A program made the position numbers and the translations under genes. The notes under the pieces were generated by a model. That model saw only the letters and a list, made by a program, of their open reading frames with translations, made no database searches and had not been told where the DNA came from. Source: a virus. From it: a stretch of 21,382 nt of DNA. The stretch is from positions 1 through 21,382 of the IMG/VR virus record IMGVR_UViG_3300027763_000270, one strand, 5' to 3'. This document shows positions 16,879 through 19,805 of this stretch, in pieces (position 1 is the stretch's first letter; each line of letters starts with the position of its first letter).

Positions 16879-16986
16879 ATGGAAAACACACAAGAATTTT
16901 GGATGCTGCTTCTTATTGCGTTGGCTCAGAGGGTCTACGAGTTGGAGCAGAGATTAGAACTATTAGAAGGACACGCGGAAAAATGA
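16879..16986 (+). CDS. 35-codon ORF upstream of the Mom-like gene
   Basis: ATG 16879 opens a 35-codon frame (MENTQEFWMLLLIALAQRVY, then ELEQRLELLEGHAEK) that ends in TGA overlapping the Mom-like start (ATGA). The product would be a short amphipathic or coiled-coil helix. No ribosome site is visible because the upstream bases are the T-rich end of the terminator. Translation may be weak or serve mainly to couple with the next gene, as the com-mom pair of phage Mu does, although this ORF lacks Com's cysteines. Confidence 0.5.
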   Translation: MENTQEFWMLLLIALAQRVYELEQRLELLEGHAEK

Positions 16987-17771
16987 AGGCTCACCAAAGG
17001 GTAATTAGAGAGCAAGCGCAGCTTAAAGCTAACGATTCTCTATTTCCCGTTGTTCCAGAAAACATTTCCTTGGCTAGTGCTCAATTTAAACGCATTGACT
17101 ATTTAACCGCAAAGCCAATCATTGAAGAGCACGAATGGATCGGCACAATGCCACTTCCAAAGTCGTGTCGCTTTATGTTTGGTGTGTACTTCGAGAACAT
17201 CCTTGGCGGTGTAACTGTGTTTGTTGAACCATCGACAAGGCAGTTCAATGCCATGAATCCAAGACAGGTTGTGCAGCTTAACCGTGGCGCTTGCGTGTGG
17301 TGGACTCCAACTAATACAGCGAGCTGGTTAATCACCAAGAGCTGCGACTACATGAAGGACGAAGGCATCAAGGCTGTCATTGCGTACTGCACGCCAGAGG
17401 CTGGCGAGATCGGCACGATATATCAGGCTTGCAACTTTCTCTATGTTGGCGAGACTATAAAGTCAAAGGCTTACTTCCTAGACAACCATTGGGTGTCTGC
17501 TAGAACTATGGGTGATAAGACTAAATGGGCTAAAGACAAGCATCCTATGTGGGTCAAGGCTTTCCAAGACATACCTGTGCGCGATCAAAAACCAAAGCAT
17601 AGGTACATAAAGCTAATAGGCAACAAAAACGAAAATCGCAAATTCTTTAAAGACTACAAATATGTAGCGAAACCATATCCAAGGCGGGAGAGTTCAGAGG
17701 TGAACGCTGTATCCAATACAGAGGCAAGGTTCGATTCCTTGATCCCGCTCCATAACAAAGAAAGAAACTAG
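16983..17771 (+). CDS. mom: Mom-like DNA adenine modification protein
   Basis: Start ATG 16983 (MKAHQRVIREQAQLKANDSL, 262 aa). A long central GNAT-like region contains RFMFGVYFENILGGVTVFVE, LNRGACVWWTPTNTASWLI, a helix DYMKDEGIKAVIAYCTP, and the diagnostic block GEIGTIYQACNFLYVGET, ending with KHRYIKLIG. This matches the Mom family, which in phage Mu converts adenine to a carbamoylmethyl form and protects DNA from host restriction. Residues about 234-257 are encoded by a sequence that folds like a tRNA and show no Mom feature. The upstream 35-codon ORF overlaps the start; the stop directly abuts the primase-helicase start. The symbol is given by family resemblance only. Confidence 0.78.
   Translation: MKAHQRVIREQAQLKANDSLFPVVPENISLASAQFKRIDYLTAKPIIEEHEWIGTMPLPKSCRFMFGVYFENILGGVTVFVEPSTRQFNAMNPRQVVQLNRGACVWWTPTNTASWLITKSCDYMKDEGIKAVIAYCTPEAGEIGTIYQACNFLYVGETIKSKAYFLDNHWVSARTMGDKTKWAKDKHPMWVKAFQDIPVRDQKPKHRYIKLIGNKNENRKFFKDYKYVAKPYPRRESSEVNAVSNTEARFDSLIPLHNKERN
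17684..17752 (+). tRNA. tRNA-like element inside the Mom-like gene (degenerate or compact)
   Basis: A 69-base cloverleaf can be drawn. The acceptor GCGGGA (17684-17689) pairs with TCCCGC (17743-17748), then T and CCA (17749-17752). The D-arm is GTTC/GAAC (17692-17705). The anticodon arm is CTGT/ACAG around loop ATCCAAT, which puts CCA (Trp) in the anticodon position, while TCC (Gly) is one base off. The T-arm is perfect: CAAGG, TTCGATT, CCTTG (17725-17741). The acceptor and T73 match bacterial tRNA-Gly. Position 9, position 26 and part of the D and variable loops are missing, and 7:66 is a G-A mismatch. It lies in frame within the Mom-like coding sequence. It may be a pseudo-tRNA, a processing signal or an attachment-site relic. 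Confidence 0.55.
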
Positions 17772-19805
17772 ATGCAAGCCGAACAAATAGCGCAAGCGCT
17801 TGGCAACGCAAGGAAAGTAAACGGGCAATGGATGGCGAGCTGTCCTGTCAGCAGTCATGGGCAGGGTAACGGGGACAAGAATCCAAGTCTTTGCGTCAGC
17901 GAGACAGACGAAGGCAAGCCGTTGTTTAAATGCTTTAGCGGGTGCAGTCAGGAGTCTGTCTTCAATGCGGTGAAGGACTACGGTCTGCTAGACGACTTAC
18001 CAAACCCGACAGACTTCCTCACCCAGATCAAGCCGTTACCGAAACCGCAAGAACCTGTGCTCGAACAGGAGTGGCACTACACAGATGAGGATGGTGTCGT
18101 CCAGCACATAAAACAACGCTACAAGACCTTTGACTCCAAAGGTAAGACATACAAGCAGTACCGCGTGGATGAGAACGGTAGACGGCACGCATCAATGACT
18201 GGTGCGAACATAGTCCCGTACAACCTGCCAGAGGTGGACTTTGCACGCAAGACAGGCAGAACTGTCTTCTTGTGCGAAGGCGAGAAGGCAGCCGACGCTC
18301 TTAAGTCTCTGGGAGTCGTCGCAACCTGTACGCATAACGGTGCAAGTAACTTCCCCGAAGATGTTGTCAAGCACCTAGTCGGACTCACCATCGCAATAGT
18401 CCCTGACAACGACACGGTGGGCTGGGAGTACGCAAGGAAAGCAGTTGCAGCGCTCAAGTCGGTTACAAAAAGTATCCGAGTGGTTGACCTTGGGTTACAA
18501 GAGATCAAGGAAGACGCATACGAGTTCGTCTACAAGTATGGCGGTGACAAGGACAGGCTGGTTGACCTGACAAAAGCCACTCAAGCAGTCACAAGTGAGA
18601 TGGATGTAACGACTCCTGCAAGATTGATTGGCGTTGCTGAGACACCAGTATCGGAAGAGCTGGAGCTGCCACAAGCACCACTTCAACGCGAAGGATTCAA
18701 GCTCGAATCGTGGGACAGCATCGAAGACGAACCAGTTGAGTGGCTTATCAATGGCGTGATCCCGCAACGATCATTCGTTGCCCTGTATGCACCGCCAGCT
18801 TCGTTTAAGAGCTTTATCGCTCTGGACATTGCGGAGTGCATCGCCACAGGCAGAGCATTTCTTGGCAACCAGATCGCCAGACAAGGTGCAGTCCTATACA
18901 TCGCAGGTGAGGGTCATGGCGGTATCGGGTCAAGGATTAAGGCGCTGAAGACGCATCACAAGACACCAGTTGGAGCGCCAGTCTATTTCCTGAGACGGCA
19001 GGTCAACTTGCGCAGCTCAAAGACAGACCTCCAAGACCTAGTGGCAGCCATTGACGACCTCAAGGCTATCCACGAGATCAACTTTGAGTTGATCATCATC
19101 GACACCTTGGCTAGAGCGTTTGGCGGTGGCAATGAGAACGCAAGTGAAGACATGGGTGCATTCATCACGGCTGCTGGCGCTATACAAGGACGGTATGAGT
19201 GTGGCTTGCTGGTGGTGCATCACGCTGGCAAGGACGCAACTAAGGGACTTAGGGGTCACAGCAGTCTCTTAGGAGCAGTAGACACAGAGCTGGAGATCAT
19301 CAGGATCGAAGGCGCTAAACCGCCAAAAGGAATACTCCATGTGTCCAAACAGAAGGACGGTGTGGACGGGCAACGCATTGGATTCAAGATGATTGAGGTC
19401 AGCTCCAGCAGACTCAATGTCGCTGACACATCTAGTCTGGCGGTAGAACCTGACAAGGAGATGGACACATCGGTCAAGCAGAAGGTGAAACAAAACCCTC
19501 CAGACGCTACTGGAAATGGAAAGAATCAAAGGCTCGCAATGGAATGCTTGTATGAGGTCGTTGCCGAAAAAGGGTTCATGCGCGACTCAATAAAGTGCGT
19601 TGGGATTGGCTATTGGGAGGAAAGATTTAGGCAGAAAAAGGGAAATAACATCGCCAAAAAGTCAGTTGATAAGGCATGGAAGGAAGTGCAAGAGGACTTG
19701 GTTGATTACAAAAAAGTAGTAATAAATCGTGACATATGCTGGATCGTATATGAGGACAAAAACGCTTCAGAATATGAAAAAGAGGAGGAGTATTCAGATG
19801 CTTAA
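17772..19805 (+). CDS. Primase-helicase (zinc finger, TOPRIM, RecA-like ATPase)
   Basis: The 677-aa protein has three parts. The first is an N-terminal zinc finger with Cys24, His29, Cys54 and Cys58 (CPVSSH, KCFSGC). The second is a TOPRIM domain at about residues 162-245, with Glu169 in FLCEGEKAADAL and Asp212/Asp214 in VPDNDTVG. The third is a RepA/AAA_25-type ATPase from about residue 310, with Walker A APPASFKSF (Lys346), Walker B LIIIDTLA (Asp444) and VVHHAGKD (His483/484). It should unwind DNA and make primers at the fork, like T7 gp4, though the ATPase is of the RepA type. The start abuts the Mom-like stop and the ribosome site is only purine-rich. The C-terminus after residue 560 is variable and charged. 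Confidence 0.88.
   Translation: MQAEQIAQALGNARKVNGQWMASCPVSSHGQGNGDKNPSLCVSETDEGKPLFKCFSGCSQESVFNAVKDYGLLDDLPNPTDFLTQIKPLPKPQEPVLEQEWHYTDEDGVVQHIKQRYKTFDSKGKTYKQYRVDENGRRHASMTGANIVPYNLPEVDFARKTGRTVFLCEGEKAADALKSLGVVATCTHNGASNFPEDVVKHLVGLTIAIVPDNDTVGWEYARKAVAALKSVTKSIRVVDLGLQEIKEDAYEFVYKYGGDKDRLVDLTKATQAVTSEMDVTTPARLIGVAETPVSEELELPQAPLQREGFKLESWDSIEDEPVEWLINGVIPQRSFVALYAPPASFKSFIALDIAECIATGRAFLGNQIARQGAVLYIAGEGHGGIGSRIKALKTHHKTPVGAPVYFLRRQVNLRSSKTDLQDLVAAIDDLKAIHEINFELIIIDTLARAFGGGNENASEDMGAFITAAGAIQGRYECGLLVVHHAGKDATKGLRGHSSLLGAVDTELEIIRIEGAKPPKGILHVSKQKDGVDGQRIGFKMIEVSSSRLNVADTSSLAVEPDKEMDTSVKQKVKQNPPDATGNGKNQRLAMECLYEVVAEKGFMRDSIKCVGIGYWEERFRQKKGNNIAKKSVDKAWKEVQEDLVDYKKVVINRDICWIVYEDKNASEYEKEEEYSDA

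Follow-up and report, generated by a model that had tools for sequence, protein, structure and literature searches.

The window analysed here is the whole 21,382-nt stretch of viral DNA (IMG/VR record IMGVR_UViG_3300027763_000270, positions 1 to 21,382). A plus-strand gene at 16983–17771 encodes a Mom-like DNA modification enzyme of 262 aa, in which a GNAT domain reaching to about residue 234 is followed by a tail encoded by a tRNA-Gly-like element. The protein matches PF25680 (2.1e-23; 83.5 bits against a cut-off of 27.1; residues 34–233) as well as PHROG 1384, and its AF2 model (pLDDT 86 overall) shares a GNAT-like fold with phage Mu Mom (PDB 8bv8; Z 18.5, 193 residues aligned), with the conserved S114 aligning with Mu Ser124, the residue mutated in the solved inactive Mu protein. 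On this sequence and model evidence we place the protein in the Mom family; activity on DNA adenine is predicted.

The Mom fold ends at a PYP motif (codons at 17673–17681), and the element begins 2 nt past the last P codon. It occupies 17684–17752 on the same strand, in frame and wholly inside the coding sequence of a PF25680 gene (approximately residues 235–257 of 262), as the original prediction had placed it. Most of the element-encoded tail (residues 240–262) has pLDDT values below 50, and the tail is predicted to be disordered. The next gene downstream, at 17772–19805 on the plus strand, is primase-helicase-like; it is a neighbour and not part of the element, and the gene following the element is not conserved in the close kin L002 and L003. 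Elsewhere in the window, the late region holds a minus-strand 2OG-Fe(II) oxygenase-like gene (PF13640; 10749–11453) beside a short gene for which Pfam gave no match.

Structure and detection of the window element

The RNA folds into a 69-nt cloverleaf (−24.6 kcal/mol, z −2.6), and both sequence and fold bear out the parts first described: a 6-bp acceptor stem, a 4-bp D-stem, a perfect T-arm, and an encoded T and CCA. The acceptor strands GCGGGA (17684–17689) and TCCCGC (17743–17748) supply the glycine identity pairs G1-C72 and C2-G71 found in bacterial tRNA-Gly; read directly from the sequence, the stem stops at 6 bp because position 7 is a G·A mismatch (7-66), whereas relatives of the element have 7 bp. 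The D-arm (17692–17705) is closed by the stem GTTC/GAAC, which covaries in class A relatives (defined below), and the T-arm (17725–17741) reads CAAGG-TTCGATT-CCTTG. The discriminator is U73 (T at 17749), as in bacterial tRNA-Gly, and is followed by the encoded CCA (17750–17752). For the anticodon arm (17707–17721), a 4-bp stem with CCA in the anticodon position had been proposed; we consider it more likely that a 5-bp stem (CTGTA/TACAG) closes the loop TCCAA, which contains TCC (C35/C36 at 17713–17714) and so shows the glycine-type NCC of the relatives. This loop is 5 nt, not the 7-nt loop with NCC of bacterial tRNA-Gly, and is too short for decoding. The window element is atypical for its kind in both its 6-bp acceptor and its short anticodon loop, and with these features and the 7-66 G·A mismatch its charging with glycine is not assured.

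Scanning both strands of the window for a 6-bp acceptor, a 5-bp T-arm and TCCA returned a single site, 17684–17752, and in 100 shuffled versions of the window, each scanned on one strand, the pattern turned up 2 times. Of the checks with tRNA finders that the original prediction had called for, the general ones came out empty: ARAGORN made 0 tRNA calls in the window (relaxed settings gave noise only), and Rfam stayed below its gathering threshold (tRNA-Sec, 21 bits). However, a covariance model built from the relatives (model R1, with the window excluded from training) matched exactly 17684–17752 with 32.8 bits (E 1.7e-4 in 304 kb). The window element is real and belongs to a widespread group of mom-linked elements.

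Comparison with the close relative L002 sets the element apart from its surroundings: the mom DNA before it is 77.7% identical (110 third-position changes), the element itself is identical at 69/69 positions, and identity after it drops to 29/100. Since most of the tail that these bases encode is predicted with pLDDT below 50, a protein-level reason for the identity is unlikely. The exact 3' end of the window element was found only in three kin viral contigs. Homology between the window and L002/L003 ends directly after the element (17753 onward), so that mom and its element together resemble an exchangeable module.

Association of the element with mom

We measured the link between element and mom in both directions. 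In the forward direction, a strict element was defined by G1-C72 and C2-G71 in a 7-bp acceptor, together with U73-C74, at the mom 3' end; it was present in 59/206 non-redundant Mom genes vs. 5/5992 control windows from the same loci. A looser scan by acceptor alone did not discriminate (90/206 vs. 612/2598 controls), which is why the strict definition was adopted. In the reverse direction, we searched all IMG/VR contigs with a degenerate 18-base T-arm signature, GGCGGTKCAANTCCGACC, which has no mom content. It returned 80 loci, 75 of them with a Mom ORF; among the other five, the element lay near a contig end in four, and one was a chance match lacking an acceptor. The element was at the mom 3' end in 41 loci and at the 5' end in 27, and three of the seven seemingly distal elements in fact touch a second mom copy of the same locus, so that element and mom are directly adjacent in at least 71/75. 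Model R1 was trained on class A elements and applied to 208 loci (726 kb), nearly all of them absent from that training; of its 61 hits, 60 touch a Mom gene.

The same arrangement is seen in named phages. In Arthrobacter phage BarretLemon, with a Mom 26% identical to that of the window, a cloverleaf resembling tRNA-Gly(TCC) lies at the mom end, and nearly all of 80 viral contigs with relatives of the BarretLemon Mom carry an element that starts just past the PYP motif, with the 3'-type elements beginning 0–17 nt after it. In Salinibacter phage B2_17 and in the complete genome of Microbacterium phage Appa, no tRNA is annotated except a tRNA-Gly beside mom, which lies wholly outside the ORF in the former and forms a separate gene on the opposite strand in the latter. 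In most 5'-type cases the start codon is 4–13 nt ahead of the element, which would then be translated as an N-terminal tail; the order start codon, element, Mom domain is seen at L117, L125, L136, L137, L178 and L218, and in the 27 T-arm loci. The mom frame is open through 47/59 elements (other frames, 36 and 14; approximately 32 expected), which is suggestive of selection for read-through among relatives that share ancestry.

Several further observations concern the surroundings of these genes. Tandem mom-like pairs occur within one locus, with the element at only one copy (L232, L274, L300 and L336). In annotated phages, mom genes of the main element-bearing clade are often preceded by a gene with a ParB-like nuclease domain (L252, L254, L255, L257 and L009), perhaps a linked part of a modification or defence module. 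A homologue search with the L005 protein returned only L005 itself.

The element is far from universal among Mom proteins. No element lies near 126/192 representative Mom genes (approximately two thirds), Mu included, where none was found at or near mom; it is also absent from close Mom homologues in Enterococcus phage phiEf11 and a Lactobacillus amylovorus plasmid, and Listeria, Staphylococcus and many other Moms are without it. These Moms presumably use host tRNA-Gly. On a tree of the 192 Mom proteins, presence and absence of the element require 13 changes, at least 10 of them forced by well-supported branches, and we therefore conclude that it was gained and lost several times. The window's Mom group is far from the main element-bearing clade and the T-arm of its element is near-canonical; the window element could be a separate capture.

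Covariation and glycine identity

The relatives fall into class A, with 68–74 nt and a full cloverleaf, and class B, with 64–67 nt and the D-arm lost. The original prediction had proposed compensatory changes in homologous Mom genes as a test, and these were abundant in both classes: 97.2% of cells were paired in class A, with 129 double changes vs. 34.7 in shuffled alignments and at most 45% pairing in slid-partner controls, and 94.1% were paired in class B, with 73 double changes vs. 19.7. RNAalifold, unprompted, recovered the same stems in class A and class B. The element is under selection as an RNA. In class B, a 2-bp covarying helix beside the anticodon stem replaces the D-arm (alignment A3, columns 14–15 with 40–41; e.g. 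L027 1185–1254).

The identity of this RNA was as originally proposed, namely tRNA-Gly-like, as the acceptor pairs, U73 and NCC conserved in the relatives attest. Among the T-arm-chosen loci with a clear acceptor, G1-C72 and C2-G71 were present in 75/75, the discriminator was U73 in 71/75 and A73 in 4/75, CCA was encoded in 55/75 and not encoded in 20/75, and NCC was found in 48/56 parsed anticodons; in the strict 3'-end set, 51/55 parsed elements had a 7-nt anticodon loop with NCC. ARAGORN and Rfam miss most elements, and several relatives are called tRNA-Gly; at mom ends, every ARAGORN call with a resolved anticodon was tRNA-Gly, in some cases tRNA-Gly(TCC). Judged by these conserved positions, the element family is glycine-specific. 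U73 is invariant in bacterial tRNA-Gly, whether proteinogenic or not, and shields Gly-tRNA from deacylation by DTD (PMC6097841). The A73 elements (L218/L305, L266, L287 and L333), which read ACCA, may reflect another form of DTD protection or another synthetase preference.

Features expected to support translation are frequently degraded. The T-loop TTC is retained in 5/24 class A rows, and U55 is lost in most elements; class A2 and class B carry a bulged A between T-stem positions 63 and 64, which makes most relatives' T-arms unlike those of host tRNAs, although the window T-arm is normal. The bulged A falls within the T-stem stretch that holds pairs 49-65 and 51-63, which set EF-Tu affinity (PMC4052509). 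Together with the loss of U55, the loss of the D-arm in class B and the short anticodon loop of the window element, it would be expected to weaken use by EF-Tu and the ribosome, and the elements appear mostly not to be built for translation.

Proposed function and comparison with known systems

Alongside mom, these phages carry a tRNA in which the features required by GlyRS are retained and those required by the ribosome are lost, and we therefore take it as probably Mom's own donor tRNA. Glycyl-CoA was earlier predicted as the donor for Mom (PMC7824862), whose product is named as a glycinamide on adenine in a reference title (PMC3874153), and one sentence of a 2025 meeting report describes Mu modification as dependent on tRNAGly for glycyl transfer (PMC12908700). 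GNAT toxins act on glycyl-tRNA (PMC9241777). The element is likely, in our view, to serve as a dedicated tRNA-Gly, mostly outside translation, that forms part of the mom transcript, is charged by host GlyRS and feeds Mom. As their overlap implies, mom and element would share one transcript, from which host RNase P and 3' nucleases would excise the element, with CCA either encoded or added by the host. Host glycyl-tRNA synthetase would charge it through the bacterial glycine identity set (G1-C72, C2-G71, U73 and C35-C36), which the relatives conserve, and the GNAT-fold Mom would move the glycyl group from Gly-tRNA to N6 of adenine in phage DNA. This would give N6-glycyl-adenine, which has the same composition as the known product, N6-purinyl-glycinamide, and is its isomer; on chemical grounds, the known form could arise if the bond migrated within the molecule from N6 to the nitrogen of the glycine. 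The lost translation features (U55, the class B D-arm, the unbroken T-stem and, in the window, the 7-nt loop) would reserve the charged tRNA for Mom, away from EF-Tu and the ribosome. Overlap with the coding sequence means that each transcript would probably give either Mom or the donor tRNA, which may limit Mom.

Several observations weigh against a donor tRNA: about two thirds of Moms do without an element, so that a host tRNA presumably suffices; and CCA is unencoded in 20, and the discriminator A73 in 4, of the 75 scored relatives, and the window element is atypical, which, as far as the sequences go, fits a donor less well. With somewhat less confidence, at slightly better than even odds, we regard mom plus donor tRNA as an overlapping dual-output gene that arose repeatedly (3', 5' and opposite strand), its tRNAs reduced to forms that would have to be recognised by GlyRS and Mom only (no D-arm, bulged T-stem, short loop).

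The main rival to a donor tRNA is an operator: Mom would bind tRNA-Gly, and the element in the mRNA would be a decoy for self-repression or destabilisation, with neither cutting nor charging needed. Overlap with the mom frame at either end could suit an mRNA operator equally well, as could the start codon just ahead of most 5'-type elements, and Mu mom is tightly regulated, including via RNA structure by Com (PMC6483171). However, the conserved C35-C36 and U73 and the mostly encoded CCA are more in keeping with use by GlyRS and at the 3' end than with mere binding to Mom, an operator located at the 3' end is unusual, and the elements outside the ORF (Salinibacter B2_17) or on the opposite strand (Appa) cannot act in cis on that message; we hold an operator to be unlikely. 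Punctuation of transcripts by tRNAs is a known principle, and the window element does lie between mom and the primase-helicase gene, so that it might be no more than an RNase P site parting mom from the downstream mRNA, with the released RNA unused. Such a role leaves the glycine identity (anticodon and U73) and the 5' placement in mom unexplained, and it is improbable. The separation of mom from primase expression, which the original prediction had put first, is not the chief role we favour, because the element follows mom before differing genes and sits 5' of it in other lineages; a part in Mom chemistry, as glycine donor, is more likely. A slightly poorer prospect still is an ordinary translational tRNA-Gly that overlaps mom by chance: tRNAs are common in phages, and some elements are near-canonical enough for ARAGORN to call tRNA-Gly(TCC), but the tight two-way link to mom alone, the restriction to glycine, the T-loops mostly without UUC, the many bulged T-stems or missing D-arms and the short anticodon loop of the window all speak against it. 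An attachment site, captured from or left by integration into a host tRNA-Gly gene, fits the break in homology just past the element, as at a module border, but is very improbable, given that a whole covarying cloverleaf and not a 3' half is retained, that T-arms are mostly unlike those of hosts, that the exact 3' end of the window element recurs only in kin, that the element travels with mom and not with an integrase, and that no tyrosine integrase was found in the window or two kin records, all possibly fragments.

The glycyl donor of Mom was long unknown, with glycyl-CoA as the prediction; the genomes independently point to Gly-tRNA, in agreement with the 2025 Mu report. If a donor tRNA is indeed what the element provides, tRNA-dependent chemistry would extend to DNA across a whole phage gene family, and the family would show how phages keep a private pool of aminoacyl-tRNA and reveal tRNAs that standard finders miss; many annotated C-terminal (or N-terminal) tails of Mom, which consist of translated tRNA, would need correction. 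BarretLemon, Appa and B2_17 offer systems for testing, and the two-way link makes the element a marker for divergent mom genes.

Compared with Mu Mom (PF25680; PDB 8bv8), the window enzyme has the same family and fold, the S114/Ser124 alignment and, as proposed, the glycine donor logic; unlike Mu, which has no element and presumably draws on host tRNA-Gly, the phage here carries the tRNA with the enzyme. The predicted glycyl-CoA-dependent Mom (PMC7824862) is likewise a GNAT enzyme that puts glycyl on adenine N6, whereas the donor indicated here is Gly-tRNA. Canonical bacterial and phage tRNA-Gly(UCC) share with the elements the cloverleaf, G1-C72, C2-G71, U73 and NCC, but most elements are without U55, class B has no D-arm, many T-stems hold the bulged A, and ARAGORN and Rfam overlook the majority. 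Operators with a tRNA-like fold are exemplified by the thrS leader, a translational operator by which ThrRS represses its own message. Alike in placing a tRNA-like fold in the mRNA of the enzyme that handles that tRNA, the phage elements differ from thrS-type operators in having a full acceptor with CCA and in being mostly 3', sometimes outside the ORF or in an opposite-strand gene. The proposed logic is that of the non-proteinogenic tRNA-Gly of Staphylococcus, a dedicated tRNA with U73 that feeds an aminoacyl transferase (FemXAB) and evades EF-Tu through an altered T-stem and D-loop (PMC4052509). For the partner transferase of the phage elements, the genomic link to mom is strong, and the use of tRNA-Gly by the enzyme is known only for Mu, from the meeting report (PMC12908700). 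The Staphylococcus tRNAs are free-standing chromosomal genes that serve cell-wall synthesis, whereas the phage elements overlap the transferase gene, take D-arm-less and bulged-T-stem forms, and are proposed to serve DNA modification.
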